Positions 6,448 through 27,061 of a stretch of DNA of 64,000 nucleotides are shown piece after piece (positions within the stretch are counted from its first letter, which is position 1; every line of letters starts with the position of its first letter). The DNA lies in contig NZ_MPDK01000005.1 in assembly GCF_003144315.1 (NCBI RefSeq), positions 1 through 64,000 of the forward strand, given 5' to 3'. This stretch comes from Sulfoacidibacillus thermotolerans. Its GTDB lineage: Bacteria; Bacillota; Bacilli; Alicyclobacillales; SLC66. A program made the position numbers and the translations under genes. Below the pieces are notes generated by a model. That model did no database searches. It was not told the DNA's origin and saw only the letters and a list, made by a program, of their open reading frames with translations.

Positions 6448-7362
6448 ATGTTGTGGAATCCATTAAAACCATCGGTGACCCCAATTCGATTACAGTCGGA
6501 TCGCGAGGATACACTGCGTAAACCACCCAATTTTTTCGTTCTTTTATGGTCAAATCGCAAAGCTCGTATTGGTATCACCATGCTGTTTTTTTTCTTTGCA
6601 ATGGCTGTATTTGGTCCGCTTGTAGCACCGTATTCTCTCTCAGATACAGACTTTGCCACTTCGCAACCTCCAACTTTAGCACATTGGTTGGGCACGACAC
6701 AAAGTGGTCAAGATGTGCTTACTCAACTTTTATATGGGGCGCGGGTTTCTCTATTTGTTGGTTTTGTCGCTGGGGCGCTCGTGATTGTCATTGCCATGTT
6801 CATTGGTTTCGTTGCTGGATATTTTCGTGGGTGGGTAGATGATTTATTGTCCTTATTGATGAATATCGTCTTAGTCTTACCTGGCTTGCCATTGATGATT
6901 TTAATTGCTGCCTATATTCCATCGCATGGAATTGGTGAGATTATACTCGTTATGTCAATTACTGGTTGGGCCTTTGGGGGAAGGACTCTGCGAGCACAAA
7001 TGTTTACGATGGTCCAACAAGATTACGTGATTGCTGCAAAGTTTGCCGGTGAAAAGTCTCTATGGATTATTTTTCGGGAAATTGTCCCTAACATGTTGTC
7101 TTATATTATTGCCAATTTTTTTGGTGCAGTGATTGGCGCTGTATTGGCAGAAGCAGGTCTTGAGTTCCTAGGTTTAGGGAATCCAAGCATTACAAGTTGG
7201 GGTACCATGATTTATTGGGCACAAAGTAGTGATGCGATGCTAAGTGGGCAATGGGCGTGGATTTTAGCACCGGGTCTCTGTATTGCGGGATTGGCAGCAT
7301 CTCTTACTTTTATAAATTTTGGCATTGATGCAGTGGCCAATCCGCGTTTACAGGAGGAGTGA
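6448..7362 (+). CDS. ABC transporter permease, DppC/OppC type
   Basis: The 304-residue membrane protein has a cytoplasmic N-terminal tail with the OppC_N-like region, then six TM segments. The coupling region AAKFAGEKSLWIIFREIVPN is of EAA type. The ATG at 6448 is chosen because GGGAGGTG ends nine bases upstream; the upstream in-frame GTG at 6436 lies within that site. It is one base downstream of the previous stop, so translational coupling is likely. Confidence 0.9.
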   Translation: MLWNPLKPSVTPIRLQSDREDTLRKPPNFFVLLWSNRKARIGITMLFFFFAMAVFGPLVAPYSLSDTDFATSQPPTLAHWLGTTQSGQDVLTQLLYGARVSLFVGFVAGALVIVIAMFIGFVAGYFRGWVDDLLSLLMNIVLVLPGLPLMILIAAYIPSHGIGEIILVMSITGWAFGGRTLRAQMFTMVQQDYVIAAKFAGEKSLWIIFREIVPNMLSYIIANFFGAVIGAVLAEAGLEFLGLGNPSITSWGTMIYWAQSSDAMLSGQWAWILAPGLCIAGLAASLTFINFGIDAVANPRLQEE

Positions 7363-7369
7363 TAGCACA

Positions 7370-8341
7370 ATGTTAGAAGTTAAGGATTTATGGGTGAAGT
7401 ATAGATCACAACATGGACGATCCGTGTCTGCTGTGCGTGGGGTGAATTTTTCGATCCCCGACGGTACCTTCATGGGTTTAGTTGGGGAATCTGGATGTGG
7501 CAAATCAACGCTTGGCTTTGCGATCGCAAGACTCTTAAATTCGCAACAATTAGAGATCTCAGGAAGTGTATTGCTAAATGGTGAAGATCTGATAAAGATG
7601 TCCTCTCGTGAATTGCGCAAGTTGCGATGGGATAAAATCGCGATTGTTTTACAAGGAGGGATGAATGCATTTAATCCTGTACTTAAAATCAAGCAGCAAT
7701 TTACGGATGTCATGAAGGCGCATGGACAGGGACGAGCGGAAGATAGGGATCAGCGCATTGCTGAGTTGCTGCGCCATGTGCAATTAGATCCAGCGTTGCT
7801 GGAAGCTTATCCACATGAGTTGTCAGGAGGGATGAAACAGCGAGTGGCGATCGCTTTGTCTTTGGTTTTAAATCCTGAATTGGTGATTTTAGATGAACCG
7901 ACAACAGCACTTGACGTTATCGTGCAAAAAGCAATTGTCGAGATGCTGCAGGAACTACAACGACATATGAAATTCTCTGTGTTATTTATTAGTCATGATT
8001 TGGGACTTGTGTTAGAAGCGGCAGAACGTGTGATGGTGATGTATGCGGGTAAGATTGTGGAAGAGGAGCCTGTGGAAGTTTTACTCGAAGGGGCTAAGCA
8101 CCCATACACAGAAGCACTATTAAGCTGTTATGGGGATCCACAAGCAAAGGAGTTGCGATTTAAAGGAATTCCTGGATCTCCTCCTGATCTTTCAAAACCT
8201 CTACAAGGTTGTTCTTTTGTGCCCCGTTGTTCAAAAGCGATGAGTGCTTGCAGGGAACTTGAACCACAGCGATTGGAATTAGAGAGAGGAGCGGTCGCGT
8301 GTCACTTATATACCAAAATGCAAGGAGGAATTGGAAAATGA
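7370..8341 (+). CDS. ABC transporter ATP-binding protein, DppD/OppD type
   Basis: The 323-residue ATPase has Walker A GESGCGKST, signature ELSGGMKQR, Walker B LVILDEPTTALD and the H-loop FISHDLG. The C-terminal oligopeptide-transporter extension with a Cys-rich stretch (CSFVPRC) is present. The ATG at 7370 follows AGGAGG (7352-7357). The upstream in-frame codons belong to the end of the permease gene. Confidence 0.92.
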   Translation: MLEVKDLWVKYRSQHGRSVSAVRGVNFSIPDGTFMGLVGESGCGKSTLGFAIARLLNSQQLEISGSVLLNGEDLIKMSSRELRKLRWDKIAIVLQGGMNAFNPVLKIKQQFTDVMKAHGQGRAEDRDQRIAELLRHVQLDPALLEAYPHELSGGMKQRVAIALSLVLNPELVILDEPTTALDVIVQKAIVEMLQELQRHMKFSVLFISHDLGLVLEAAERVMVMYAGKIVEEEPVEVLLEGAKHPYTEALLSCYGDPQAKELRFKGIPGSPPDLSKPLQGCSFVPRCSKAMSACRELEPQRLELERGAVACHLYTKMQGGIGK

Positions 8342-9372
8342 AGCTTGATGAGCAAACGTTCTCGTCGCATAAAACCGCAATGTTAACCTTAAAAGAGGTA
8401 ACCAAAGTTTTCAAAAATCGCGCAAGAACAACAGTAGCTCTGCATCGCGTAACTTTCACAGTGGCTCCTGGTCGCATTGTTGCATTAGTTGGAGAAAGCG
8501 GGAGTGGGAAAACGACTTTGGCTCGTATTGTGACAGGGATTGAGAAACCCACTGAGGGAAGTGTGACACTTGGTGAATGGCAGGTTGACCGCTTGCGTTC
8601 AAGTCAATTGCGAGTGTATCGGCGTTATGTACAGATGGTCTTTCAAGACCCTTTTTCATCATTGAATCCTCATAACACGGTATTACAAACAATTGTGCGT
8701 CCGCTTATGAATCACTTGCATTTGAATGTAAAGCAAGCGCGACTTCAAGCATTAGAAATTATGAATACGGTGCGTTTAACTCCAACTGATCAGTTTGCGC
8801 ATAAAAAGCCGCATCAATTGTCTGGAGGGCAGCGGCAAAGACTTGTCATCGCGCGCGCAATTGCTCCAAATCCGGAATTGATTGTGGCGGATGAACCTGT
8901 ATCTATGTTAGATGTTTCTATACGTGCAGATATTTTGGAACTTATCGATCAACTGCGCAAACGTACAGGCATGTCCGTGCTTTATATTACACACGATCTA
9001 TATAGTGCTCGAGCGATGGCCGACGAAGTGGTTGTCCTGTATAAAGGTCATGTCGTTGAACGAGGCAACATTGAAGAAGTAATAAGTCATGCGCAACATC
9101 CATACACGCAATTACTGTTACAGGCAATTCCAAATCCGTGGAAAAAAAGGCAACCTACCGCACATCGTGTAGATGGTTCAGAGAGTGCTCCTCATTTTGC
9201 AGAGATTCCTGCAAAAGATGAGATCACTCTTTATGGTAGGTTACATGCGGGAGACAAGGGGTGTCCCTTTGCTGCACGATGTGAACTTGTCAGTGGGGAG
9301 TGTTTGCAAGCAAAACCTAGCTTGAAAGGGACAGAAGTACATCAAGTGAGTTGTTGGAACCGTCAAGTGTGA
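8338..9372 (+). CDS. ABC transporter ATP-binding protein, DppF/OppF type
   Basis: The 344-residue ATPase has Walker A GESGSGKTT, Q-loop VFQDPFSSLNP, signature QLSGGQRQR and Walker B LIVADEPVSMLD. The C-terminal Opp extension carries CPFAARC. The start ATG overlaps the previous stop (ATGA) and AAGGAGGA lies nine bases upstream. It heterodimerises with the preceding ATPase to energise uptake and closes the operon. Confidence 0.92.
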   Translation: MKLDEQTFSSHKTAMLTLKEVTKVFKNRARTTVALHRVTFTVAPGRIVALVGESGSGKTTLARIVTGIEKPTEGSVTLGEWQVDRLRSSQLRVYRRYVQMVFQDPFSSLNPHNTVLQTIVRPLMNHLHLNVKQARLQALEIMNTVRLTPTDQFAHKKPHQLSGGQRQRLVIARAIAPNPELIVADEPVSMLDVSIRADILELIDQLRKRTGMSVLYITHDLYSARAMADEVVVLYKGHVVERGNIEEVISHAQHPYTQLLLQAIPNPWKKRQPTAHRVDGSESAPHFAEIPAKDEITLYGRLHAGDKGCPFAARCELVSGECLQAKPSLKGTEVHQVSCWNRQV

Positions 9373-9497: not shown

Positions 9498-10067
9498 TTA
9501 GAATATTTTTTTTTCTTCTTGGTAGTCTTTTAGAATCTCTACAGCCTCACGAAAACGTATCGCATGGATGATTTCTCGTTGACGTAAAAACGAGAGACTA
9601 TCTTTCAGGTCCACATCGTCAGTGAGATTGATGAGCCATTGATAGGTTGCACGTGCTTTTTCTTCAGCGGCAATGTCTTCGTATAAATCGGTGATTGGAT
9701 CTCCTTTGCTTTGAATATAAGTCGCTGTAAATGGATTTCCTGCGGCATTTTCATAAAATAAAGAAACGCCGTGATTCGCATAATGTTCTCCTAACCCAGC
9801 AACTCGAAGTTGTTCTGGAGTAGCGTCTTTGGTTAGTTTGTAAATCATCGTAGCAATCATTTCAAGATGTGCAAGTTCTTCAGTACCAATGTCTGTAAGT
9901 AATGCGATGATTTTATCGGGAATCGTATAACGTTGATTCAGATAACGCAGGGCTGCAGCTAGTTCTCCATCTGCTCCGCCGTACTGTTCGATTAGATACT
10001 TGGCCATCTGAGGATCACATTTGCTCACTTTGACGGGGTATTGGAGTTTTTTTTCATAAATCCACAC
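9498..10067 (-). CDS. cotJC: CotJC, spore coat protein of the manganese-catalase family
   Basis: The 189-residue protein is closely similar to B. subtilis CotJC (conserved segments EKKLQYPVKVSKCDP, EQYGGADGELAAALRYLNQR, LYEDIAAEEKARATYQWLI). Glu and His residues in the helical core (TEELAHLEM, AAEEKA) fit the di-manganese catalase fold. The GTG at 10067 gives the usual (M)WIYEKK start with gaggtg six bases upstream. A GTG three codons earlier overlaps that site. It is the last gene of the cotJ operon, expressed in the mother cell in known species. Confidence 0.93.
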   Translation of the reverse strand: MWIYEKKLQYPVKVSKCDPQMAKYLIEQYGGADGELAAALRYLNQRYTIPDKIIALLTDIGTEELAHLEMIATMIYKLTKDATPEQLRVAGLGEHYANHGVSLFYENAAGNPFTATYIQSKGDPITDLYEDIAAEEKARATYQWLINLTDDVDLKDSLSFLRQREIIHAIRFREAVEILKDYQEEKKIF

Positions 10068-10091
10068 AGCACTCACCTCGTATAGGATGCA

Positions 10092-10355
10092 TTACATTTG
10101 CCATGGCCAAGGACTTTCTATCCACTGCCAGGCTGTTTGTGTCATTTGCTGGCTGTATGATGTAAGGGGACCGAAAATTTGTTCAAATTGTCGTTCGATC
10201 GATTCTTTGCGTTGTAAAAATTGTTCGAATTGGGCAATTGCTTGTGTATCTGTGGGATGGGTATCGAGATAGAGAGTGAGTTCGCTAAGTACAAAGTCAA
10301 GAGATTGCAATTCTTGTAACTGATTGTAAAACTGTGGTGGCAATGGGTTAGTCAT
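10092..10355 (-). CDS. cotJB: CotJB, spore coat assembly protein
   Basis: The 87-residue protein matches CotJB (LQELQSLDFVLSELTLYLDTHP, then a Gln/Phe-rich helix and a Trp-containing tail). Its ATG overlaps the cotJA stop (ATGA) and it sits directly upstream of cotJC. CotJA and CotJC interact and are incorporated into the inner coat in B. subtilis; the role of CotJB is less clear. Confidence 0.92.
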   Translation of the reverse strand: MTNPLPPQFYNQLQELQSLDFVLSELTLYLDTHPTDTQAIAQFEQFLQRKESIERQFEQIFGPLTSYSQQMTQTAWQWIESPWPWQM

Positions 10356-10561
10356 GAATCTGTCCCTCCAGTATATGGACTATAAAGATCGGGCCAAAGT
10401 ACTCCATGGCGCAAGGCTTCGCGGTAAGCGAACTGCTTGAGACGACGGGGTTGAACCGTGAAAAACTGATTGACTGGGATAATAAATCGGCGTGTTTCTA
10501 AGACAGGGCAGGGATCGTTAGGACTTTTATAGGCAGAGTAGGTTTGCCAACGAGGTACCAT
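10352..10561 (-). CDS. cotJA: CotJA, spore coat-associated protein
   Basis: The 69-residue protein is rich in Pro, Tyr and Arg, with the family features RFIIPVNQFFTVQPRRLKQF and a WPDLYSPY tail. The ATG at 10561 is preferred because AAGGAGGA lies seven bases upstream. An in-frame TTG two codons earlier is too close to the site. It is first in cotJABC. The region just upstream (minus strand) contains CATATCGT, about 10-14 bases after an A/T-rich -35-like stretch, only weakly resembling a SigE promoter. Confidence 0.9.
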   Translation of the reverse strand: MVPRWQTYSAYKSPNDPCPVLETRRFIIPVNQFFTVQPRRLKQFAYREALRHGVLWPDLYSPYTGGTDS

Positions 10562-10874
10562 ATGCAATCCTCCTTCTCACACAGGAGATATGGAGAACGA
10601 TATGCAAGTGGGACAAAAAATAGGTTAAAAAAATTCATGGAAATAAATAGTTGCTATGCTTCGGGAGCTTATTGAGATGACGAGTGCATAGGGGGAGATA
10701 AGTGTCGCTTCTGACTCAATTGACTCTTTGTAACATGATCTTTGTTAAAGATAGTTCACTATATCTTATTCTAAATCGTTGTGAACTTCTAGGATGTGGG
10801 CAGCGTGTATTGTACAATTGTGGGGCGATACAGATGGATCATGTCGCAGTGTTTTTGGGTGGGGGGATAAACAG
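10562..10874. promoter_or_regulatory. Divergent intergenic region between cotJA and the HD-GYP gene
   Basis: I see no gene in this stretch. On the plus strand TTGACT (10720-10725) with TGTTAA 17 bases later (10743-10748) is a weak SigA-like promoter for the PAS-HD-GYP gene. On the minus strand a possible SigE-like site serves cotJ. Neither is certain. Confidence 0.3.
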
Positions 10875-11939
10875 TTGAATGCAGAACAAGAACATCCTTT
10901 TATTCCAGAAGTTTTGCATCCTTTTTTGCGATTAGGAGAAGCGGTGTCAATTACTGATGAGAAGCATATCTTCTTAGCAGTTAATAAAGAGTTTACCAGA
11001 CTAACTGGCTATCGATCAAAACAGGTAATTGGGCAAAAGGCAAGTTTATTGCGGTCAACGATGACACCGCGATACGTATATCAGACGATGTATCACCGAT
11101 TAAAAGAACAAGGATCATTTTCCGGTGTAATGACAAATCGCCGTCCGAGTGGTGAACTCTATTCAGTAAATCTAGGTATCACAAAATTTACAATTCAAGA
11201 GCGCGTGTTCTATGTAGGGATTTTCTGGGCTCTTGATCATCTCATGCGTGGTATGTACCTATCAAATGATCAATTAGAAAATTGGCGGCGCCGAATTTTA
11301 ATGCAGTTAGCGTATGTCGCAGAGAGTTCAGATCCAAATATTGTAGATCATATACATCAAGTGGAACATTATACATTGACTCTATCACATGTATGGTTGA
11401 GAAAACATCCGATGTTTGCTTCTGAGCAGTGGCTTAAATCGATGGGGATTGCCGCTATGTTGCATGACGTTGGGAAGGCACATATCCCCTCTTCCTTACT
11501 TTATAAACCTGGCAAACTAAATACAACCGAGTTTGCATTAGTAAAACAGCATGTCGTTTATGGAGAGGAGATGCTACGAGAAATCGAGTTAGAGGGAATT
11601 TTAGCACCCGATGAGCAACTTAACGAAAATGTTTTTCAACTTGCCAAAGAGATCGCTCGTGCACACCATGAGTGGTGGAATGGGACAGGCTATCCAGATG
11701 GTTTACGCGGGGAAGAAATTCCGCTGTCTGCTCGCATTGTGGCGGTTGCAGACGTGTTAGACGCACTGCGCTCACAGCGTCCTTATAAACTGCCGTGGGC
11801 AGACCATGAGATTCAAAGTTATTTTTTAGCGCGTAAAGAAGTGCAATTTGACCCGGAATTGGTCGATCTGCTGATGGAAAATTGGTCACTTTTTCGCCCC
11901 TTAGAAGATGCACAGCGAAACTATAGGAACGTAGATTGA
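10875..11939 (+). CDS. PAS domain-HD-GYP phosphodiesterase-like signalling protein
   Basis: The 354-residue protein has an N-terminal PAS domain (about residues 20-130, with RLTGYRSKQVIGQKASLL and a PAC-like SGELYSVNLG). The HD-GYP domain (about 150-345) carries the catalytic HD pair (His197-Asp198 in LHDVGKAHIP), the HHEWWNGTGYPDGL signature and the downstream DVLDALRSQRPY. HD-GYP proteins hydrolyse c-di-GMP or related dinucleotides. No TM segment is seen, so the PAS ligand should be cytosolic. The TTG at 10875 is chosen because ggggggat lies just upstream. An in-frame ATG at 10794 would extend it by 27 unconserved residues. It may be co-transcribed with the next two genes. Confidence 0.85.
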   Translation: MNAEQEHPFIPEVLHPFLRLGEAVSITDEKHIFLAVNKEFTRLTGYRSKQVIGQKASLLRSTMTPRYVYQTMYHRLKEQGSFSGVMTNRRPSGELYSVNLGITKFTIQERVFYVGIFWALDHLMRGMYLSNDQLENWRRRILMQLAYVAESSDPNIVDHIHQVEHYTLTLSHVWLRKHPMFASEQWLKSMGIAAMLHDVGKAHIPSSLLYKPGKLNTTEFALVKQHVVYGEEMLREIELEGILAPDEQLNENVFQLAKEIARAHHEWWNGTGYPDGLRGEEIPLSARIVAVADVLDALRSQRPYKLPWADHEIQSYFLARKEVQFDPELVDLLMENWSLFRPLEDAQRNYRNVD

Positions 11940-11959
11940 TTCAAAGTGAGAAAGGCGGA

Positions 11960-12790
11960 ATGGCCCCTACCATGCCAGAATATGATTGGATGAAATGGTT
12001 TATTGAGGGAAATACATCTCGCTCATTGATTCAAGCCTTTCGAGATCTAACTTGTGTACGTATTCATTCGCAGCATCAGCTAGTGATTGCAACTGATTCC
12101 GTCGGTGGCATTGGGATGAAAGCGGCAGATGCTGTGCGCGTCTTACCAGAAGTTGTGGGATATTTCGCTCTGCGTGTCCCATTGATGGAAATTTTGGCGA
12201 TTGGAGCGACTCCATTTCTTGTGGTGAATACGCAATGTCAAACATCTGATGAATATAGTGACGCTATTTTACACGGAATGAAAATGCTTGCACAGGAAGT
12301 TGGAATGGAAGAACGTCTGCAGTTTAATGGAAGCACGGAGGATAATGTTCCCACAATACAGACGGGTGTTGGAGTCACGGTGGTAGGAATCGTATCTGAT
12401 GAGAAATTTTATGGCGGCACAATTCGTGCAGGGCAAATAGCGCTTGTCGCGGGGCTGCCCAAAAGTGCACCCACTCACGAAATTCAGGTGGATGATCAGG
12501 AAATTTTATCGATCCGAGATTTACAAACGTTGCGTTCACATCCACAAGTTTCAGATATTCTGCCAGTCGGATCAAAGGGAATTCTATACGAGGCAAATCA
12601 ACTAGCTTCTACTTCTGGACTTTCATTTCAACTAGAAGATTCGCCCATCTCATTCACATCATCTGCAGGACCAAGTACTTGTGTGGTGTTTGCTTGTGAT
12701 GAATGGGGAGCAATCGATGTTATGCGACAGATTACGGCTCCAGTTACGCGAATTGGGACGTTTATCGCGCTTGATGCAAAGGAAGAATGA
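11960..12790 (+). CDS. PurM-superfamily (AIR synthase-like) ATP-dependent enzyme, possibly a kinase
   Basis: The 276-residue protein (ATG 11960; start uncertain, with a TTG at 11936 overlapping the HD-GYP stop) has the AIR synthase-related N-terminal fold. Visible motifs are an acidic nucleotide/Mg site in IATDSVGGIG, PLMEILAIGATPFLV (compare the DLAAMGA region of ThiL/HypE), and a strand with GVGVTVVGIV. The C-terminal half is a PurM_C-like domain. Family members include PurM, SelD, HypE, ThiL and, in some Firmicutes, alpha-ribazole kinase (CblS). It is too short and too different to be PurM. The adjacent NCS1 permease argues for a kinase acting on an imported base, nucleoside or vitamin precursor. 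The substrate is unknown. Confidence 0.7.
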   Translation: MAPTMPEYDWMKWFIEGNTSRSLIQAFRDLTCVRIHSQHQLVIATDSVGGIGMKAADAVRVLPEVVGYFALRVPLMEILAIGATPFLVVNTQCQTSDEYSDAILHGMKMLAQEVGMEERLQFNGSTEDNVPTIQTGVGVTVVGIVSDEKFYGGTIRAGQIALVAGLPKSAPTHEIQVDDQEILSIRDLQTLRSHPQVSDILPVGSKGILYEANQLASTSGLSFQLEDSPISFTSSAGPSTCVVFACDEWGAIDVMRQITAPVTRIGTFIALDAKEE

Positions 12791-12805
12791 GGAGATCGAC
12801 GAAGA

Positions 12806-14224
12806 ATGCAAATACAGGGGAATGAACGATGGAAGATTGAACAATATGGGATTGACCCAATTCCTTATCATGCGCGGCAGGATCGACCAATGGATTTGTT
12901 TTGGGTATGGTTTGCCGCGAACATCGGCATTTTAGGAATTCTATATGGCGGGGTGATTATCGGGTATCATTTGAGTTTCTTGCAATCACTCCTTGCAGCT
13001 TTTATAGGCGCAGCCTCTTTTTTGATTGTGGGCATTCTTAGTGTTGCTGGGAAGCAGAGACATGCACCCATGTTCATTTTATCACAAAGTGTTTTTGGTG
13101 CTAGAGGAAATCTGTTTCCGGCGACTGTCGGTTGGGTAAACTTGCTTGGATGGGAAGCGGTTACAGTCGTCACAGGAACTCTTTCGCTTGCAGCTTTATT
13201 ACAGGATATTTTTGTGCGAGCGAATCCGACCTATTTGGATCTCTTTGCTGTCACTTTATTTTCGGCTTGTGTCATTGTGCTTGGATTACTTGGACAGGCT
13301 ACTTTACTCCTTGTGCAAAAGGTTGCGACCTTTGTTTTTGGATCTTTAATTTTAATCGTGATGCTCTTTTTGTTGCAGCATGGAATTCCGTGGAAATCAT
13401 TGCTGGAGATGCCGACAGGGAATTGGCTGCAAGGGTTTCTTCCCGCAGTGGCAACCATTGCGGCAGGGACGAGCATTAGCTGGGGGCTTGTTGCAGCAGA
13501 TTACAGTCGCTATCAAGCTTCGCATGTTCGCTCTCGTACATTGGTTTTGGCAGTCACATTAGGTGGCAGTATTCCTTTGTTTATTCTCATGACAATTGGC
13601 ATTATACTCTGTGCACGAGATCCACAGCTTGTCATGAGTAGCAATCCGATTGCTGCAATTGGGTCGCTGTTGCCTCAATGGATGGTTATTCCCTATTTGC
13701 TAGCGGCGGTCGGAGGATTGATCGCGGAAGCAGATTTAAGTCTCTATTCTTCTGGACTGACGTTATTAGCGATAGGTGTACCTTTTAAACGGTATAAAAC
13801 GATATGGATTGATGCAGCGGTAATGCTTGGTGTTACGATCTATATTTTGTTTTTTAAGCAAAACTTTCTAGGTCCATTTACTTCATTTCTTACGTTTACG
13901 GGGATTTCTTTGGCGGCCTGGGAAGCTGTATTTATTACAGATCAATGGCTTGTTCGCAGAGAGGATCCCGATGTATTGCGCATTGATGGGACCCTTAAAA
14001 AACAGAACCCGTCTTTTTTTCGTACGTTGCATCGCTACGCATTTATTTCTTGGCTGGCGGGTCTGATCATAGGAAGTTTGTTTACGACTTCTACATTCTT
14101 TCAAGGGCCGTTTGCAAATGGAGTATTTGCTACTAGTAGTCTGGGTATTTTGATTACGGCGCTCGTGAGTGGAAGTTTCTATTTCCTCCTTTTGGTGATC
14201 CAGCGTGGTAATTGGGGTAGGTAA
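12806..14224 (+). CDS. NCS1-family permease (cytosine/purine/vitamin-precursor type)
   Basis: The 472-residue protein has about twelve TM segments. The N-terminal IEQYGIDPIPYHAR is the cytoplasmic signature of nucleobase:cation symporter-1 proteins. FWVWFAANIGILGILYG and SVFGARGNLFP correspond to the conserved first and third TM regions. A GGAG lies about 11 bases before the ATG, 15 bases after the PurM-like gene. NCS1 proteins take up cytosine, purines, allantoin, hydantoins, thiamine-type pyrimidines or nicotinamide riboside. The exact substrate cannot be told, but pairing with a kinase-like gene suggests uptake followed by phosphorylation trapping. Confidence 0.85.
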   Translation: MQIQGNERWKIEQYGIDPIPYHARQDRPMDLFWVWFAANIGILGILYGGVIIGYHLSFLQSLLAAFIGAASFLIVGILSVAGKQRHAPMFILSQSVFGARGNLFPATVGWVNLLGWEAVTVVTGTLSLAALLQDIFVRANPTYLDLFAVTLFSACVIVLGLLGQATLLLVQKVATFVFGSLILIVMLFLLQHGIPWKSLLEMPTGNWLQGFLPAVATIAAGTSISWGLVAADYSRYQASHVRSRTLVLAVTLGGSIPLFILMTIGIILCARDPQLVMSSNPIAAIGSLLPQWMVIPYLLAAVGGLIAEADLSLYSSGLTLLAIGVPFKRYKTIWIDAAVMLGVTIYILFFKQNFLGPFTSFLTFTGISLAAWEAVFITDQWLVRREDPDVLRIDGTLKKQNPSFFRTLHRYAFISWLAGLIIGSLFTTSTFFQGPFANGVFATSSLGILITALVSGSFYFLLLVIQRGNWGR

Positions 14225-14338
14225 ACACACGATCTTGCTTTTGCTCCGGCGAACGCCGTCAACGATATCACATTTTCAATGTACCTTATCTACATAGTAT
14301 AAGATGAACTGTGTTGCGGTTTGCGAGGGGGGAAAGAG

Positions 14339-15256
14339 TTGAAGGTGCAGGTGTACTCGGGGAAACATATGTGGATTTGGGAAGTTGATCAAACCTTCGC
14401 GGGGAATCTCTCGCTACTCATTCATACAGGTCAACAACTGGGGATCGATGGATTTTTAGTGAAAGCTCATGACGGCTCTACAATCTGGCCGCAATTTGCC
14501 AAAGTCATTGGCCCATTAAAGCAAGCAGGTTTTCATGTTGCCGCTTGGGGATACGTATATGGGACGGATGTTTTAGGTGAACTGAAGGCGGCACAAACGG
14601 TGATTGACCTCGGAGCGGATTGGTATGTACTCGATGCAGAGCAAAGTTTTAACGATCGGATGACTGCTGCAGAACAACTGTGCTCAGGACTACGCACGCA
14701 GTTTCCAGAGTTCATTATTGGGTATACGACATTTGCTTTTCCGAGTGATCACCCGCAATTTCCTTATACAACGTTTAGTCATTATTGTGATGTATGCTTG
14801 CCGCAAATTTATTGGGGAGATTTTGGTTTGGCACCTGCTCTTGCGGTACAACAGAGTTATTCTGAACTGCGCAACTTTGGAACCCCCATTGTTCCTGTGG
14901 GCCAGGCTTATGGAGCCGTAACGAGTGAGCAGATTGGGCAGTTTGCGCTGGCGGTTAGAGAGCAAGGGGGAATAGGGATAAGTTTTTGGGATATGCAATC
15001 GGCAAACTCAAAACAACTGCAGGCCATCGGACAAATTCGCCTTGGGAGGGAAAGCTACGTGAAAGACTCGCCAGCAGACATCCATCCAAATGATTGGTTC
15101 TATGGAGCAGTCAATGATCTACTTGCACGTGGAATCGTGACAGCGTATCAGGATGGACTCTTTAAGCCAGATGAGCCAATTACACGTGCACAAGCTGCAG
15201 ATTGGTTAAACCGATTGCGCATCTATATAGAAAAGCAAACAGGAAGAGTCACATAG
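14339..15256 (+). CDS. TIM-barrel glycosidase-like protein with one C-terminal SLH domain, no signal peptide
   Basis: The 305-residue protein starts at a TTG six bases after gagggggga. Residues about 1-240 look like a GH25- or DUF4015-like barrel (DGFLVKAHDGSTIW, ADWYVLDAEQSF with acidic residues at a strand end, DVCLPQIYWGDF, GIGISFWDMQSA). Residues about 250-300 form one S-layer homology domain (DWFYGAVNDLLARGIVTAY, then FKPDEPITRAQAADWL). SLH domains normally bind secondary wall polymer, usually in threes and on exported proteins, yet no signal peptide is visible. The catalytic class is not established. Confidence 0.6.
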   Translation: MKVQVYSGKHMWIWEVDQTFAGNLSLLIHTGQQLGIDGFLVKAHDGSTIWPQFAKVIGPLKQAGFHVAAWGYVYGTDVLGELKAAQTVIDLGADWYVLDAEQSFNDRMTAAEQLCSGLRTQFPEFIIGYTTFAFPSDHPQFPYTTFSHYCDVCLPQIYWGDFGLAPALAVQQSYSELRNFGTPIVPVGQAYGAVTSEQIGQFALAVREQGGIGISFWDMQSANSKQLQAIGQIRLGRESYVKDSPADIHPNDWFYGAVNDLLARGIVTAYQDGLFKPDEPITRAQAADWLNRLRIYIEKQTGRVT

Positions 15257-18873: not shown

Positions 18874-18920
18874 AATGAGTGGGCGTATGTGTTTCGTCGG
18901 TGAGGGGGCTGCAACGCATC

Positions 18921-20375
18921 ATGAAGTTGTCCGATCGTTATGAAGTGCAGACTGTCATTGCAACTTGTGCTGGGTGGAGTATTGCGCGCGGATTTGACGT
19001 GCGATTAGGCCGCCCGGTGTTAGTTGCCACACAATCTGGACGTGCTTTTGATCGTTATGCAGTAGATACGTGGCTTGCAAGGCGCGTGAGCATCTCGCAT
19101 GCTTATGTAGCGGAGTTATTTGACGCACTACCGACTGATGATGGATTTTACTGTGTATTTGAGAGTAGAAAAAATGACTTACTTGGATTCCCTGATCTCT
19201 CGCGCTATGAGCTTTTGTCCGCATGTGTAAAAATCACAGAGGCAGTTGAATGTCTTGTTCAGGCAGGAATTGCATTTGCTTTTTCAGATCAGCAAATCAT
19301 TTGGGATGGCGAATATCCGCATGTACTCGGACTTTTGTCAATCCCCTCAGAAGAGAGATCTGGGGCAGTTGAAATGCACGTGAATGCACTTAGTCAGTAT
19401 ATCGCCGATCGCTTGCAAAAACGTATAAATTTGTCAAATGATCCTGGTCGAATTCTTGAGCGTTCACCCGTATTACGTGTTGGGTTACAACGATTGCGTG
19501 GTGAAGTTGCATCCTGTACTACGTTTGCGGATCTTCGAATGATTCTTGAGGCGATGCTCATTGCAGAGCAGCGACGAAAAATGGCGTTACAGTCGAATCA
19601 AGAGCAAGCTGGCGAGGAATTTGCACGTCCAAGTCAAATCGACGAAGAGAAATTTCATAAGATGGAAACTCTTGAGTTTCAAGCTCCCACTCGCGCTCAT
19701 CACGTTGCTAAAGAGGGATTCGCTGCGGGGAAATGGGATGTTTACGCAAATAACCGTTCGCAGTTGCCCCAAAAGAGTGTGGAGAGAGAGGAAGAACATG
19801 AGGACAATGGCGTGTTGTCGCGTAATTTGCGCATGCGTACTGTGCTTATCGTAATTTTAAGCGTAATCGCTGCACTTGCGATCATTTATGGTGGGGTGCG
19901 GGCAATGCGCAATGGGATGTTTGGAGCCAATACTCCTCGCCCATCAATAGAAACCTCAGGACAGATGCCAAAGAAGGAGATAAAAGTGCTTGGATTATCA
20001 CCAAGCGCTGCTATTTCTTTGCTTACTTCACACGGAATTCACGTGGTTCGGGTCGAGGCTGTAAAGCTAATGAGTGGCGAGATTGCAGATACGGTAGTTG
20101 GTTCGCAGCCAGCGCTGCAAAGCGTCGCATCCCCTGTACGTCAAGTGACTTTACAAGTCGCGATTCCAAGTGGATATAAACTTGTGCCTAATCTTTTGAC
20201 ACGCACTTTGCAAGAAGCGCAGCAACAGCTTTTGGCTGATCACTTTCCCTATTCCTATGTCATTCAAAATGATCCAGGGGCAGTATCTGGTGAGGTGATT
20301 AAGCAAAATCCAATGCCGTTTACGATGCAGCTTGAGCAATCAAATGTCACTTTCATCGTTGCGCAAAATTCGTAA
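18921..20375 (+). CDS. Kinase-like (apparently catalytically dead) membrane protein with two extracellular PASTA domains
   Basis: The 484-residue protein begins like PrkC/PknB (KLSDRYEV, then GFDVRLGRPVLVA) but lacks the Gly-rich loop, the VAIK lysine, HRD and DFG motifs. The kinase-like part (about 1-230) is followed by a charged linker, one TM segment (about 305-328) and two PASTA repeats (about 352-415 and 416-484; the second has VPNLLTRTLQEAQQQL). PASTA domains bind muropeptides or beta-lactam-like ligands in related receptors. The ATG at 18921 corresponds to the usual start; an in-frame upstream start at 18879 adds unrelated residues. It probably acts as a non-catalytic wall sensor or scaffold; this is inferred. 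Confidence 0.72.
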   Translation: MKLSDRYEVQTVIATCAGWSIARGFDVRLGRPVLVATQSGRAFDRYAVDTWLARRVSISHAYVAELFDALPTDDGFYCVFESRKNDLLGFPDLSRYELLSACVKITEAVECLVQAGIAFAFSDQQIIWDGEYPHVLGLLSIPSEERSGAVEMHVNALSQYIADRLQKRINLSNDPGRILERSPVLRVGLQRLRGEVASCTTFADLRMILEAMLIAEQRRKMALQSNQEQAGEEFARPSQIDEEKFHKMETLEFQAPTRAHHVAKEGFAAGKWDVYANNRSQLPQKSVEREEEHEDNGVLSRNLRMRTVLIVILSVIAALAIIYGGVRAMRNGMFGANTPRPSIETSGQMPKKEIKVLGLSPSAAISLLTSHGIHVVRVEAVKLMSGEIADTVVGSQPALQSVASPVRQVTLQVAIPSGYKLVPNLLTRTLQEAQQQLLADHFPYSYVIQNDPGAVSGEVIKQNPMPFTMQLEQSNVTFIVAQNS

Positions 20376-20451
20376 ACAAGAAAACTATGATTCTATCATT
20401 GACAGACTTCCTCCGGCATCGACATAATAGGTGCTGGAGGGGAAAACACGC

Positions 20452-22746
20452 ATGGTTCGACAGCACTCGACGATCTTAGCCTTGTTTCTTACAGGTGTCA
20501 TGGCAATTGGTGTGCCAGTAAGCGCCAAGGCGAATGTGATATCTGCGCAGAATGTTCCGATTTGGCACATTTCATCACATGGAGATTTTGCGCAAAGTAG
20601 AGATGGAAATCCCTCTATAAGCGATGTCGCTTACATTGTGACCTATTCGTCTGGGGGAACTCGTAAACAGCAGACTTTTACAACACTTAACCAAGCAAAA
20701 GCTTTTGCCTCAGGGGTTACGGATGCAGTCGTCGTGGATGGGAAATTCGGATCTGTAGTATATTCGAATATTCGCCGTCCTTATGCTGTGGTACCGCAAC
20801 AATCTGTATTTTCTGCAGGATCGTTTCTAAAATCCTCTACATACTCTTCGATTCAGGCGGCTATTGCTGCCGCAAAAAATATTCCCGGACAGGTTGTATT
20901 CAATCGCATAAGTCGTGCAGTGGTTTGGAGTGATGGGAACAACTACGAAGTGATTGGGCAGGGAGCCACCACTTCGTATCAAACGCTTGAGGCAGCTATG
21001 ACAGCTGCACGGGGCATGCAGTCTGCTGCAGTGGTTAGTATCGATACACAGCAAACGCTGTGGAAGGCAGCTTATCGCGTATTGATCGATCAACAGTTTG
21101 CAGAGTCATTTTCCAGTTTTGCAAATGCGAAAGCGTATGCGACGCAAAATCCGCAAAGTGAAGTCATTGACATCGCAAATGGACAGGATGTTTGGGACAA
21201 TATACCGCGCTTTAATGTCTATCAAAATGGCGTCTTGCTCAAGCAGTTTAGCAAGAAAAGCGATGCGCTTGCTTTTGCCAAAGGATTAAATAATGTCACG
21301 GTAGAAGAGATTGCGACGCAAACTGTGATTTACACAAATGTTCCTGCGTATGCCGTTGAAGTGGGCAATAAAACGATCCAATCTTTCGTGGATGAAGCGT
21401 CTGCAATCGCACTGGCTAAAACATTACCGGGTTCCGTTGTAGTACAATTGAGTACCAATCATATCGTTTGGACGTCAGCTGCAACGTACGGAGTTTATCA
21501 ATATCTCCAATTAGTGCGCTCATTTAACAATGAGGCTGATGCAATTGCTTATGCACAAACTCTGCAAGATGTGCAGGTCATCGACAGCGCGAATAATCAA
21601 ATTGTCTATTCGAATTATCCTACAGATGTAAAATCTCCTTATGGTGATACATTTACCGTACAAAATGGAATGGTTGTGGATAACTGGGGATCTATAAGCA
21701 TCCCTCTGGCACCGGCGCCTTCCTTTATGACACCAGGTCAGACGTACGTATCCAATGATTACGATCATTGGTATGAAGTTCTTCCCACTGGCGATGTGTA
21801 TGTCGGACAATGGGAAAATCCTTATCAAACGATGAATTTAGAGACACAGTCGACACTTACTGCTGCACAAATTAATAATTTTATCGCGCAAAACGCAGCT
21901 CCCAATAGTGTTTTGCAAAATACCGGACAGTATTTTATTGAAGCGCAAAATACATACGGAGTAAATGCACAATATTTAGTTGCGCATGCGATCATTGAAT
22001 CTGCTTGGGGAACTTCTTATTTTGCCATGAATCGGGATAATTTGTTTGGTTACATGGCGTATACAAACAATCCAGATGCAGCAGCAACATTTCGTTCTAT
22101 TGAATATGACATCAATTTTCAGGCGTGGTTTGTGCGCAATTCTTATCTGAATGCAAACGGCGCATTTTTTAATGGTCCTAATTTAGACGGAATGAATGTC
22201 GATTATGCGACAGATCCGTATTGGGCAAATAGTATTGCGCGGATCATGTCAGAGATTCAACCTTATAGTTCAAGTATTGGGGATCAGTCGCTTTTAGGAG
22301 AACAGGCAACGCGAAAAGTTTTTCCTTATCCTAAAGGTGCGATGGGACAAGCCACTTCTGACCTGACTGTTTATTCTGCACCAGATGATGCTACGACGGC
22401 GCAACCAACCGTACTAGGTACAATTCCTAGCGGAACTGATTTTCCTGTGTTAGGCGATTCGCCAGGGTGGGATCAAGTGCAATTGCCAAATGGACAGGTG
22501 GGATTTGTGAATTGGAATGGTGTTAGTTTGCAAAATGTTATGGAGGTAGTCGGGATTGATTATGGAAGTTTCTTGGCGGTCAACTCTGTAGATAATCCGA
22601 CAACGACAGCTGATACAATCGATAAATTAACGAACGGTGTTTATGTTGTTTTAATCCAGTCTTCGTCTGACGGCTGGGATGAGATCATGGATGGCAATGG
22701 AATCGAAGGTTGGGTCAGTGCAAAGTATGTTCAGGTTATTCATTGA
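20452..22746 (+). CDS. Secreted glucosaminidase (peptidoglycan hydrolase) with N-terminal tandem repeats and C-terminal SH3-like domains
   Basis: The 764-residue protein has a signal peptide (hydrophobic ILALFLTGVMAIGV, cleavage likely after SAKA). Residues about 55-390 form seven divergent repeats of about 46 residues, each with a Y-x-V strand, an F/A-rich helix (A.A.AK) and a closing V[VI]W/Y. A glucosaminidase domain follows (about 470-615), with catalytic Glu516 in HAIIESAWGTS and downstream NLFGYMAY. Two SH3b-like modules end the protein. It should cleave N-acetylglucosaminyl bonds in peptidoglycan. The ATG at 20452 follows ggagggg at about ten bases. It is directly downstream of the PASTA protein. 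Confidence 0.85.
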   Translation: MVRQHSTILALFLTGVMAIGVPVSAKANVISAQNVPIWHISSHGDFAQSRDGNPSISDVAYIVTYSSGGTRKQQTFTTLNQAKAFASGVTDAVVVDGKFGSVVYSNIRRPYAVVPQQSVFSAGSFLKSSTYSSIQAAIAAAKNIPGQVVFNRISRAVVWSDGNNYEVIGQGATTSYQTLEAAMTAARGMQSAAVVSIDTQQTLWKAAYRVLIDQQFAESFSSFANAKAYATQNPQSEVIDIANGQDVWDNIPRFNVYQNGVLLKQFSKKSDALAFAKGLNNVTVEEIATQTVIYTNVPAYAVEVGNKTIQSFVDEASAIALAKTLPGSVVVQLSTNHIVWTSAATYGVYQYLQLVRSFNNEADAIAYAQTLQDVQVIDSANNQIVYSNYPTDVKSPYGDTFTVQNGMVVDNWGSISIPLAPAPSFMTPGQTYVSNDYDHWYEVLPTGDVYVGQWENPYQTMNLETQSTLTAAQINNFIAQNAAPNSVLQNTGQYFIEAQNTYGVNAQYLVAHAIIESAWGTSYFAMNRDNLFGYMAYTNNPDAAATFRSIEYDINFQAWFVRNSYLNANGAFFNGPNLDGMNVDYATDPYWANSIARIMSEIQPYSSSIGDQSLLGEQATRKVFPYPKGAMGQATSDLTVYSAPDDATTAQPTVLGTIPSGTDFPVLGDSPGWDQVQLPNGQVGFVNWNGVSLQNVMEVVGIDYGSFLAVNSVDNPTTTADTIDKLTNGVYVVLIQSSSDGWDEIMDGNGIEGWVSAKYVQVIH
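20570..21640 (+). repeat. Seven tandem divergent protein repeats of about 46 residues
   Basis: Within the glucosaminidase gene, seven units share the pattern Y-x-V, a 10-15 residue variable turn, F-x-S/N-x-x-x-A-x-A-x-A, then V-x-x-x-x-x-x-x-V-W/Y. Examples of the closing strand are AVVWSDG, TLWKA, DVWDNI, VIYTNV, IVWTSA and IVYSNY. They are diverged at the DNA level, so they are old. They resemble SPOR-like or wall-binding repeats in spacing, but I cannot assign a family. Confidence 0.65.
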
Positions 22747-22940: not shown

Positions 22941-24161
22941 TTGGGGGAAAGTGTTTTGCCGCTGCGGCTGAAATGGCCGCTTTACCTCTTAGCGGCCTTT
23001 CCGGTAGCTGACTATTTCTTGCATATTTATCCTTGGGGCATCATCGGTGCCGCATGGGACAAATTGGTCTTTATTTTGCTCGCTTTTTACGCGATTCGCG
23101 CGCGCATGGCGGGCGTGCAAAGAAAGTTTTATCCGACACAGCGCTATATTATCTTTATCGCTGTGCTGGGACTCGCATATATGCTGATGGATGTAGGCTA
23201 TTTGACAGTCGCTTTTGCTGGTTGGCGAGTTGACTTTCTTTATATGTTATTCGCATTAGTTCTTCCGTATGTCGTTGAGAAGGAAGATATTGTGCCACTT
23301 TTGAAATTCATGGTGCTCATTGGATTCTTGATGGCGATTCACGGAGTTTATGAGTATATTATGCGGGCACCGATCCCAAGTGCTTGGATAAATTTAGGTG
23401 AGCATGTTCGTACGCGCGTTTACTCACTTTTTGGTAGCCCAAATATCTTTGGTTCCTATATGGCGTTTATTGCGCCAAATGCTATGGGATTAGCTCTATA
23501 CGAAAAAAAGCGCGGTCCGCGTTTGTTTTACGGAGCAGCCGCAATCGTAAGTATGATGACGCTTGTCTTTACCTTTACACGGGGTGCATGGGTTGCCTTT
23601 TTTGTTGGCGCGCTGGTCTTCACATGGTTGCTTGACAAGCGTTTGACCATTATCGCAATCGTCTTGACGGTGCTTGCGATCTTTTTTGTGCCACCTATTC
23701 ATGCGCGTATGGATCAATTTCTGTCGCCTGTGTATTGGGTTAAAACAGAGCAAAGTGGACGCATCGCGCGCTGGGGGCATGCTTACGATCAAATGTTAAA
23801 AAACCCGCTATTTGGCGCTGGACTTGGCCGCTATGGAGGCGCTGTTGCTTCCAAATATTTCGGGATTATCTATGTTGATAATTACTATGCGAAGACCTTG
23901 GCTGAAACTGGCCTGATCGGCATTCTCGCTTTTTTTGGCCTCCTATTCGTTTATTTACGAGATGTTTGGCGGGTTCTTAAACGGACGGCGGATACGAGGA
24001 TGAAATATTTGTTTATTGGGGTGTTTAGTTCGCTCGTGGTGTTGGTGTCCCATAATGCGGTTGAAAATATTTTTGAGGTACCCTCTATGAACTTCTTGTT
24101 TTGGATGGTTGGCACGCTAGTGCTAATCTATGGGGCGGAAGGGGAGATGAATCGTGACTGA
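22941..24161 (+). CDS. O-antigen ligase/polymerase-like (Wzy/WaaL) membrane protein
   Basis: The 406-residue protein has about ten to eleven TM segments and a large periplasmic-type loop. FGSPNIFGSYMA, FTFTRGAWVAFFVGAL and NPLFGAGLGRYGG are typical of the Wzy_C/O-antigen ligase family, whose members transfer or polymerise lipid-linked glycans. The start is TTG at 22941 with tggggtg upstream. It overlaps the next gene by eight bases. In a monoderm this would act in wall glycopolymer or exopolysaccharide assembly, but no glycosyltransferases are nearby. Confidence 0.82.
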   Translation: MGESVLPLRLKWPLYLLAAFPVADYFLHIYPWGIIGAAWDKLVFILLAFYAIRARMAGVQRKFYPTQRYIIFIAVLGLAYMLMDVGYLTVAFAGWRVDFLYMLFALVLPYVVEKEDIVPLLKFMVLIGFLMAIHGVYEYIMRAPIPSAWINLGEHVRTRVYSLFGSPNIFGSYMAFIAPNAMGLALYEKKRGPRLFYGAAAIVSMMTLVFTFTRGAWVAFFVGALVFTWLLDKRLTIIAIVLTVLAIFFVPPIHARMDQFLSPVYWVKTEQSGRIARWGHAYDQMLKNPLFGAGLGRYGGAVASKYFGIIYVDNYYAKTLAETGLIGILAFFGLLFVYLRDVWRVLKRTADTRMKYLFIGVFSSLVVLVSHNAVENIFEVPSMNFLFWMVGTLVLIYGAEGEMNRD

Positions 24162-25821
24162 ATCGACGTGGCGACGTTGGCTTTCTGTTCCGTTTCTGAT
24201 CCTTTATGCGCTTTGGGTGATGGTTTTTTATCAGTTGGTTTTTACGGCTTGGACTTTGCAATACTCTTACTTTGGCATTTTATTGGTGATTGCGGCGAGT
24301 TTGCTTTTTATGTATGCGTTCCCGCTGCGTGATCGCAGGCTCGTGGTAAGGCTCACTTTGTTTTGCTTGATGGCCAGTATAGGAATCGCAAGTTTTGCTG
24401 GTGAATCATTGATTTGGCGGATTATTGATTTTATTGTCTTTGTTGGACTTGCGTTGACTCTTGGTCGAGTTCTCGTTGGTGTGAGAACACTGCGCCTGTT
24501 TTTTATTATTGTCGCGCTTACAATTGTTCAGATTTTTATTCCGCTGCATGATCTGCGCAACCTAGCTTTTTTTAATGTGCGGTATATCGGGCATTTGGCG
24601 AGCCCTGATCCGCAGGTTCCGAGTTTACCTGTAGCTGCTGTCTCAGATCCAGTCCGTCCAGGGATGCAGGAAATTGTTACTTTGCGCGGGCATCGTCCAA
24701 TTAAGGACGAAGCGCAAGACTTAGTTCATTTGATGAACCAGAATCCTCAAGCGGGAACTACGATTGAATCTGCAATTCAGGAGTTACAGCACTCGTATGA
24801 CGTTGTTGCGATTCGCCCTGGTCGTTTGCGCTTCATCACACATTATGCGACGCAACGCGAATTGAGCCAGTTGCCATTTTGGTCGTTAGGGTTGATGGAC
24901 TTTCCATTTACAACGTCGCATTTTCTCAATTTGCAAGATCGAACGCGTATGTATGTCTCCCTTTCAGCTGATCCAGGAACCCTTTTATCAATGTTGTTAA
25001 GTCCCGGAACTGTTGCACAATCCATGGCTGATTTGAGCTTGAAAACAGCGAGTACGGAAGCTCAAAACTGGAAACAGGTAACCGGTCATCAAATCGACGT
25101 GACCGATGGGCTTTCCTTGCAAGGAGGATATTTAACAGGGACCTACCAAGGGTTACCTGTGCACGTTCGCACGCGTGGCGTCGCAATTTTAGGTGTTTAT
25201 CACCTATTGCCGCAAAACGTCGATGCAAATCCGCAAGTAGTTGTTGAAGGCAACAACGTGATACAAGTGCTTTCTCTGCCGCCAGAAAGGCCGCATGTGA
25301 TTGCGACCTTAAAAGGCTCCTATCTTCATCCTTTGACGACTGACGTGGTCTTTGCGGATCTCACTGGCAAACATCGCGATGCATTATTAGTTAACACAGT
25401 GCCAGCGCAAATTTTTCAGTTGACCAGTGCTGGAGAGTGGCAACGATTATGGGTGAGTGGGCGCGATTCATTTCGCTTTGAGACCGTCTTTCCACGCAAA
25501 GGGGGGGATTTGTTGATTGCAAATGCTCCGAGTTTGATCAACACTTCTCCTACCCGCTATTTAGGTGGTTACATCTATCATAATGGGCAATTGCAGCGTG
25601 TCTTTCGCGTGTACTATCCTAACTATGTCGATTTACAAACGGTACATGTCACTTCTGCTACACGGCCTGAATTGTTGACTTCTGTTTTCGCACATCAAGA
25701 AATCGTCTTGCTAGGTTTACAAAGAGTGCCTTGGTTATGGCTCATAGAAGCTGGTTATGTGTTAGCTATTGCCGTAGGTCTCGCCCGTCGCCTGCAATTG
25801 CGAAGGAGGGTTCTGCGATGA
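24154..25821 (+). CDS. Unknown membrane protein with a large extracellular domain
   Basis: The 555-residue protein is not recognised. Residues 1-150 contain about five hydrophobic segments. About 155-525 is a soluble region, probably outside the cell, rich in beta-forming segments (for example a VVFADLTGKHRDALLVNTVP stretch resembling an FG-GAP/VCBS-like strand pair). One TM helix (about 530-548) and a basic tail end it. The GTG start lies inside the previous gene, and its stop overlaps the lipoprotein ATG, so all three genes form one translationally coupled unit. Confidence 0.7.
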   Translation: MTESTWRRWLSVPFLILYALWVMVFYQLVFTAWTLQYSYFGILLVIAASLLFMYAFPLRDRRLVVRLTLFCLMASIGIASFAGESLIWRIIDFIVFVGLALTLGRVLVGVRTLRLFFIIVALTIVQIFIPLHDLRNLAFFNVRYIGHLASPDPQVPSLPVAAVSDPVRPGMQEIVTLRGHRPIKDEAQDLVHLMNQNPQAGTTIESAIQELQHSYDVVAIRPGRLRFITHYATQRELSQLPFWSLGLMDFPFTTSHFLNLQDRTRMYVSLSADPGTLLSMLLSPGTVAQSMADLSLKTASTEAQNWKQVTGHQIDVTDGLSLQGGYLTGTYQGLPVHVRTRGVAILGVYHLLPQNVDANPQVVVEGNNVIQVLSLPPERPHVIATLKGSYLHPLTTDVVFADLTGKHRDALLVNTVPAQIFQLTSAGEWQRLWVSGRDSFRFETVFPRKGGDLLIANAPSLINTSPTRYLGGYIYHNGQLQRVFRVYYPNYVDLQTVHVTSATRPELLTSVFAHQEIVLLGLQRVPWLWLIEAGYVLAIAVGLARRLQLRRRVLR

Positions 25822-26570
25822 AAAAGAAGCGGATGATGTGGTTATCCGTACTTGCATCTGCGATGCTGTTAACGGGGTGCAACCTCGTCTCTGACCCTGC
25901 GCTTTATAATCAGGAAACGGTGCAGCGGTCAGTGACTCCAGATGGCTTGAATCAGGTTTCTACAGCCCTTTCGAGTATGGCGGATGTAAAATCCTATGAA
26001 TTGAAAGCTTCCATGCAGGCGCATACAGGACGTTTCGTTCAAACTGTGCAATTTTATGGGTCGGTAAAGTTGCCAAGTGAGGTGTCGATGGATGAGACGA
26101 TTGGTGGAGCAAACTACCTGATTTATCAAGATGGGTCATTTGCCTATGAAAAAGATGGAAATCGGTGGTCGCCCATGCAACCACTCACTGCTCTCACGCC
26201 GTGGCAGTCTCTTTCCAGCTTATTAAGTGTAAGTCCGCCTAAAGTGGTTTATCAATTACCGCAACAAACGGTCGTTTCGTGGTTGTGTGACGTATATCAA
26301 TTTAAGACTGTTGCGAGTGGGACACTGCTTGGTGGAATGGGAGCAACATCGAATATGAACCAACGTACAGTTCCGCGCGAAGCGCTATATACAGTTTGGG
26401 TCGATACGACGGATGGTAAATTACGCCAGATTGAAGTGCAATCAACCGTTGGTGTTCCAGGTCTTGGGACGACAGCGTTTGATGCAAAAGAATTATTTTT
26501 TGGGTTTAATAATCCTAAATTAAAGTTTAAAATTCCAACTGATTTATTGTCCCAAATTGAAAGACCATAG
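25818..26570 (+). CDS. Lipoprotein with LolA/LppX-like fold prediction
   Basis: The 250-residue product begins with a lipoprotein signal (MKKKRMM, hydrophobic core, lipobox LLTGC with Cys21). The mature part has alternating strand pattern segments (VKSYELKASMQAHTG, FYGSVKLPSEVSM, YTVWVDTTDGKLRQIEVQ) like the half-barrel lipoproteins LppX/LprG/LolA and DUF6612-type proteins. The ATG overlaps the preceding stop (ATGA) and AAGGAGGG lies eight bases upstream. It may carry or sense a lipid-linked glycan intermediate; this is inferred. Confidence 0.7.
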   Translation: MKKKRMMWLSVLASAMLLTGCNLVSDPALYNQETVQRSVTPDGLNQVSTALSSMADVKSYELKASMQAHTGRFVQTVQFYGSVKLPSEVSMDETIGGANYLIYQDGSFAYEKDGNRWSPMQPLTALTPWQSLSSLLSVSPPKVVYQLPQQTVVSWLCDVYQFKTVASGTLLGGMGATSNMNQRTVPREALYTVWVDTTDGKLRQIEVQSTVGVPGLGTTAFDAKELFFGFNNPKLKFKIPTDLLSQIERP

Positions 26571-26716: not shown

Positions 26717-27061
26717 ATGCATCCATTAATTCGTGAGATCGCTTCTGAACAATTGCGCAGTGATCTTCCAAAGTTTCGTCCTGGTGACACGATTCGCGTT
26801 CATGTGAAAGTACGAGAAGGTTCGCGGGAACGGATTCAGGTATTTGAAGGCGTCGTTATCAAACGTCGCGGTACAGGGATCAGTGAGACGTTCACTGTAC
26901 GTAAGATTTCGTATGGGGTAGGTGTAGAGCGAACATTTCCTTTCCATACTCCAAAGATTGACAAGTTAGAAGTTGTCCGTCGCGGGAAAGTTCGCCGTGC
27001 AAAATTGTATTATCTGCGCAATTTGCGTGGTAAGGCAGCTCGTATTAAAGAGTTGCTGTAG
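26717..27061 (+). CDS. rplS: 50S ribosomal protein L19
   Basis: The 114-residue protein is full length for L19. Family segments are [28 protein letters not shown] and a C-terminal [20 protein letters not shown]19 sits at the 30S-50S interface. Its own promoter and a terminator-like hairpin after it show it can be expressed separately from rbgA. Confidence 0.97.

Follow-up and report, generated by a model that had tools for sequence, protein, structure and literature searches.

The locus considered here raises the question of what a Wzy/WaaL-like membrane protein, a large membrane protein without a family name (hereafter U) and a LolA-like lipoprotein do together at the surface of Sulfoacidibacillus thermotolerans. 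Their three genes lie in the 64,000-nucleotide stretch of DNA that was analysed (the window), and an earlier note had read them as a set that could polymerise or ligate a lipid-linked glycan outside the membrane. The computed coordinates (Table 1) agree with those of the note, including both start-to-stop overlaps (24154/24161 and 25818/25821), which measure 8 bp between genes 1 and 2 and 4 bp (ATGA) between genes 2 and 3. SD-like motifs occur 5' of gene 1 (GGGGTGA) and 5' of gene 3 (AGGAGGG); a longer TTG ORF starting at 25731 for gene 3 is mechanical. Across 17 loci of the family, the first junction is -8 (or -4/-14) and the second -4 (or +2/-14), and because identical overlaps recur in relatives, translational coupling is a conserved trait. 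As the note had also remarked, no glycosyltransferase or flippase gene adjoins the trio within the window, nor does a wall-polysaccharide gene cluster lie beside it there; GT2, TagO-type, TagA-type and LCP genes are located elsewhere in the genome (see below).

Table 1. Features of the locus, with positions in the window
Feature	Position	Strand	Length and start codon	Basis or remark
Gene 1, Wzy_C (O-antigen ligase/polymerase superfamily) membrane protein	22941..24161	+	406 aa, TTG	PF04932
Gene 2, U, no Pfam/NCBIfam name	24154..25821	+	555 aa, GTG	AF2 and VIA fold
Gene 3, lipoprotein, LolA/LprG/LppX-type fold	25818..26570	+	250 aa, ATG	lipobox LTGC (Cys21)
Glucosaminidase with SH3 domains (context only)	20431..22746	+		PF01832/PF08239 and synteny
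rplS, ribosomal protein L19 (context only)	26717..27061	+		tblastn synteny
SLH protein, neighbour of the trio	14321-15256			

Nearly every genome of the Alicyclobacillus/Ferroacidibacillus order, and of one other class, carries the trio. U was found in 17 of the 18 genomes of the window's family and in 57 of the 59 genomes of the order, which includes Alicyclobacillus. It was detected in only 8 of 398 genomes sampled phylum-wide, the window's own genome included, while none of the listed same-class genomes of that sample matched; the other phylum-wide matches belong to a second class, in which 9 of 10 genomes carry U. Hydrogenibacillus schlegelii and an uncultured Firmicutes bacterium also possess it. 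The conservation across Bacilli that the earlier note had proposed to examine is thus very high in the order and the second class, but the idea of a trio general in Bacilli was rejected on the phylum-wide count. A scan of the genome contigs with the single U sequence gave no match.

The Wzy gene lies immediately upstream of U in 57 of 60 distinct cases, so that the genes do co-occur in relatives, and in all 60 the lipoprotein gene follows immediately or is fused to U (59 by threshold, and L107 from inspection of its ORF). An adjacent Wzy gene is absent in three genomes (G035, G047, where a remnant is kept, and G055), and in a fourth that is counted among the 57 (G037) it consists only of fragments with stop codons; each of the four has an intact Wzy gene elsewhere in its genome. 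In the window's family the gene order is PASTA protein, glucosaminidase, trio and rplS, the upstream glucosaminidase being conserved mainly within this family. In Alicyclobacillus a 4HBT gene is often found 5' of the trio and rplS 3' of it, the latter being the usual downstream neighbour in the order. Unrelated genes flank the trio in the second class and in Hydrogenibacillus. Since the neighbours differ between groups, the togetherness of the trio does not merely come from a static region.

Duplications and fusions tie the three genes together further. Two genomes of one genus harbour a second, diverged copy of the entire trio (L018, L019), which was thus once duplicated as a unit. In six loci (L050, L055, L056, L092, L103 and L107), U and the lipoprotein are encoded by a single ORF, and on the supported branches of the U tree this state must have changed at least four times: such fusions arose several times. 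Some of them could be recent or assembly-derived, for example that of L050, which retains a lipobox at its junction and has unfused close relatives. The junctions of L092, L103 and L107 show no lipobox Cys, and the LolA-like domain would therefore be held there by a membrane helix. In several Alicyclobacillus genomes, a paralogous Wzy is fused to the N-terminal membrane part of U without the propeller described below (L091, L095, L109, L122 and L123). Co-occurrence, coupling, block duplication and fusions show that the three genes form a genuine unit, which bears out the earlier view of them as a set working together.

The nature of that work depends first on gene 1, the only PF04932 protein of the genome, which scores 56.8 bits against this family for a cut-off of 31.7, in keeping with its initial description as Wzy/WaaL-like. 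A sub-threshold NCBIfam match to TIGR00947 (E 7.7e-21) would fit bicarbonate transport of the IctB type, but with 74.6 bits against a cut-off of 366.4, and with diphosphate-binding arginines and an acidic active-site residue that are invariant, such a role is hardly credible and was rejected on its score. A profile of the Wzy proteins matches WaaL (7tpg, E 1.2e-5), and in the profile alignment R191, R265 and H313 of WaaL correspond to R214, R274 and D313 of gene 1. Between R274 and the next W, and between D313 and G324, the alignment has no gaps, and the spacing between D313 and the G of ExGxxG is identical in both proteins; the equivalence of D313 and H313 comes from a single profile alignment, modest in local confidence but gapless in spacing. 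All 69 homologues share R214, R274 and D313 of gene 1. In WaaL, R191 and R265 bind Und-PP and H313 activates the acceptor (PMC10920833). Within the GT-C1 clan, O-ligases have a His at the H313 position while SEDS has an Asp (Meitil et al., PMC10920833), and the polymerase families carry Asp or Glu there with the single exception of GT127 (PMC10920833). Gene 1 therefore has the two Und-PP-binding arginines of the GT121 O-antigen ligases but an invariant Asp in place of their acceptor-activating His, and it combines the conserved Arg with the acidic residue of GT-C1 polymerases of the SEDS/BP-Pol type. With an Asp at the ligase His position, gene 1 may be read as a polymerase of an undecaprenyl-linked glycan and not as a ligase; by the rule of PMC10920833, these residues favour a polymerase-like rather than ligase-like clade.

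The alternative, in which Wzy_C would transfer a finished lipid-linked glycan to the wall, to a lipid or to an S-layer protein in the manner of WaaL or of an S-layer-glycan ligase and the choice of acceptor would fall to U and the lipoprotein, draws on the presence of ligases in PF04932, on WaaL being the best solved relative and on the SLH protein and wall glucosaminidase neighbouring the trio. We consider it unlikely, as the invariant Asp replaces the ligase His and separate LCP proteins for wall attachment are present. Action of the trio on a lipid-linked glycan outside the membrane stays plausible, and of the two activities first suggested ligation is disfavoured.

The product of gene 2 matches no Pfam or NCBIfam family, and a profile search of solved structures with it returned no meaningful match. 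The refuting possibility named in the earlier note, that U belongs to an unrelated characterised family, was therefore not encountered for the window member, and what the note had called an unknown membrane protein is a family so far undescribed. The AF2 model (pLDDT 81) places five TM helices at the N-terminus, followed by an ectodomain and by one C-terminal TM helix (527-554), the last being an addition to the N-terminal membrane segments and large extracellular domain recognised initially. The ectodomain (approximately residues 138-526) superimposes on the integrin alphaM beta-propeller (VIA Z 14.7, 276 residues, rmsd 5.7). Pfam detected FG-GAP matches in diverged members of the U family, above the cut-off in one of them (L103), and none in the window's U. 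The protein is thus predicted to be an integrin-alpha-like beta-propeller set between membrane helices. It resembles integrin alpha and FG-GAP propellers in the predicted fold of its ectodomain but differs from them in being bacterial, in its 5+1 membrane helices, in a long helical insert and in its location in a glycan operon. The odd number of N-terminal helices together with the final helix would place the propeller outside and both ends inside, and in the fusions a further helix would carry the LolA-like domain back outside. No catalytic motif was recognised among the conserved residues of U, and an enzymatic role was rejected on this ground.

As to gene 3, no Pfam family was detected for the window protein and none is shared among 20 members, and a profile search of solved structures gave no meaningful match. 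Its AF2 model, of moderate confidence (pLDDT 63), has its highest VIA scores with LprF (Z 13.3), LprG (13.1) and LppX (12.9), ahead of LolA and RseB, and Foldseek likewise retrieves LprG (E 3.8e-6). The model thus agrees with the fold of the LolA/LprG/LppX superfamily (helix, antiparallel half-barrel and lipid-binding cavity), an assignment that concerns the fold only. Together with a lipobox whose Cys is invariant in 20 homologues, this supports the first description of the protein as a LolA/LppX-like lipoprotein. It is alike in predicted fold to the mycobacterial LprG, LprF and LppX (Z about 13) and differs from them in having no Pfam match and in having as partner a membrane propeller protein, to which it is sometimes fused, and not an MFS transporter.

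This likeness is a ground for a reading in which Wzy makes a lipid-anchored glycan (lipoglycan) that U and the LprG-like lipoprotein then shift or display, the unit serving mainly to export or position it on the model of mycobacterial LprG and Rv1410, which transport triacylglycerides (PMC10576003). Such a role appears improbable, since no MFS or ABC transporter belongs to the unit and the lipoprotein is fused to U in several lineages; in L092, L103 and L107 it would be unable to travel. The same fusions disfavour the free-moving carrier that had been envisaged for the lipoprotein. A second parallel is GerS, like the present protein a LolA-like lipoprotein of a spore-former that would work beside a wall enzyme, which activates the CwlD amidase; it differs in that its partner is soluble and in that GerS is a domain-swapped dimer (PMC8496864). 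By analogy, the LolA-fold lipoprotein and the propeller might be allosteric activators of a membrane enzyme with a spore-specific target glycan. A regulator acting locally would be in keeping with the fusions and the constant adjacency of the genes, but the upstream wall glucosaminidase and PASTA protein are of a general type, and we regard this possibility as quite remote.

Searches of the genome, made family by family, further indicate which glycan might be concerned. Three PF00953 (TagO-type) proteins are encoded, one of them in the mur cluster, and a TagA-type gene (PF03808) is flanked by two LCP genes (PF03816), with a third LCP gene elsewhere; the TagO, TagA and LCP genes of an SCWP pathway are thus all present. 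No CsaB pyruvyl transferase gene (PF04230) was found in this genome, and a CsaB-dependent pyruvylated SCWP was accordingly rejected for the host. There are 16 PF00535 matches. Flippase-family matches (PF01943) measure 536-567 aa, the one examined lying in a spoVT-yabM-like (SpoVB/YabM) context, and no dedicated Wzx flippase was recognised among them. The GT2 clusters of the genome (contigs C24 and C114), inspected as possible wall-polysaccharide loci, showed no recognisable polymerase or dedicated flippase among their listed ORFs. A GT2 glycosyltransferase gene adjoins the paralogous Wzy genes of Alicyclobacillus, whether these stand alone or are fused to the membrane part of U, and it has an unlinked homologue (42% identity) in the window's genome. 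In Hydrogenibacillus, the trio is located between a CsaB-type gene, which occurs beside it only there, and genes for a GT4 and a UDP-sugar dehydrogenase. This context suggests a surface polysaccharide, a wall polysaccharide of the TagO/TagA/LCP type being the leading candidate.

Taken together, we consider it moderately probable that the trio forms one extracytoplasmic glycan-polymerising complex, in which Wzy_C would be the catalyst and the other two proteins fixed accessory subunits. The polymerase activity, complex formation and division of labour that we infer would proceed as follows. After arrival of a lipid-linked repeat at the outer face, Wzy would bind the diphosphate of the undecaprenyl-PP-glycan via R214 and R274, and D313 would activate the acceptor hydroxyl, so that the surface polysaccharide chain is extended as by an inverting GT-C1-type polymerase. 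U would dock on Wzy through its membrane helices, its propeller holding the growing glycan or organising partners, much as an accessory or chain-length subunit does. Fixed in place on U, the lipoprotein would locally shield or sense a lipid tail or switch activity, and not serve as a free shuttle, and the finished polymer would probably be attached to the wall by LCP proteins. The Wzy half of this scheme is based on residues and homology, and the half concerning U and the lipoprotein is deduced from fusions, adjacency and fold. A more specific version is only tentative and rather doubtful: a three-subunit polymerase in which the propeller and the LolA-fold module replace a Wzz-type regulator, link chain growth to release of the lipid or attachment to the wall, and polymerise the wall polysaccharide of the Alicyclobacillus order.

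Compared with known systems, Wzy_C shares with GT-C1 polymerases and ligases (PF04932; WaaL, GT121, 7TPG; SEDS, GT119) a common superfamily and the two diphosphate-binding arginines. Its acidic acceptor-activating residue is as in SEDS and most BP-Pol families, whereas WaaL has a His, and it is encoded with U and the lipoprotein where known GT-C1 systems have Wzz/Wzx or a class B PBP. With WpaA/WpaB of Bacillus anthracis, also Gram-positive, it has in common the Pfam clan that includes Wzy and WaaL. These proteins have been proposed to act in the extracytoplasmic assembly of a TagO/TagA-initiated wall polysaccharide as SCWP polymerase/ligase (PMC6030368), an activity that is proposed as it is here. 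They differ in belonging to a sister Pfam family (PF13425), which gene 1 does not match, only PF04932 being listed at E up to 1, and in that no propeller or LolA-fold partner is mentioned for them. No polymerase with such partners was found in the open-access literature searched, in agreement with the remark that no system of this composition was described, and no relevant description of O-antigen ligases in Alicyclobacillus was found in that literature. Neither partner of Wzy belongs to a described family: Wzy-type polymerisation is known, and the two partner families are unnamed.

These data indicate that a putative surface-glycan module, core and almost universal in an entire bacterial order, has hitherto been without a name. 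The trio ties two protein classes not previously placed together to a Wzy-type polymerase, a link that the fusions of U with the lipoprotein show directly. SCWP polymerisation and ligation, and more generally the polymerisation and attachment of wall polysaccharide repeats in Gram-positives, are open questions (PMC6030368), which the trio makes testable.

The PASTA-domain protein encoded two genes upstream of the trio (the overlapping Wzy, U and lipoprotein genes) carries its PASTA repeats at the C-terminus, while its N-terminal ca. 260 residues gave no Pfam kinase match, an arrangement reminiscent of a PASTA kinase whose kinase domain has become degenerate. This protein and the adjacent SH3-domain glucosaminidase are kept together in the family. 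The glucosaminidase and Wzy genes are separated by 194 bp, and within this spacer lies a perfect inverted repeat with 10-bp arms (TCCGAAAACG/CGTTTTCGGA), possibly an operator or a terminator. No PF04230 (CsaB-type) gene was found in the genome, despite the SLH protein encoded near the trio.

Features in the window and at compared loci
Feature	Location	Strand	Remark
Protein with one recognised SLH domain	14321-15256	+	near trio
PASTA-domain protein	18879-20375	+	two genes upstream of trio
Inverted repeat, 28-nt loop	22769-22816	+	
Fragmented trio Wzy gene	L133 (G037) 7577-8180		pieces with stop codons
Glucosaminidase with SH3 domains	L132 (G055) 7030-8721		usual Wzy place, immediately upstream of U
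Second lipoprotein of same genome	L142 12517-13506	+	before alr
Paralogous two-gene unit, Alicyclobacillus	L089, L091, L095, L097, L104 (~9900-13250), L109 (7311-10599)		

The Wzy gene next to U is not always intact or present. In genome G037, U and the lipoprotein are intact beside the broken Wzy, and another, intact Wzy occurs elsewhere in the genome; in G055 the usual Wzy place is taken by a glucosaminidase. The second lipoprotein at L142, whose sequence and position are suggestive of YdcC, is possibly a LolA-like relative. Finally, the paralogous unit of Alicyclobacillus is composed of a Wzy, either stand-alone or fused to the membrane part of U without the propeller, followed by a GT2 glycosyltransferase, and apparently represents a second glycan system.
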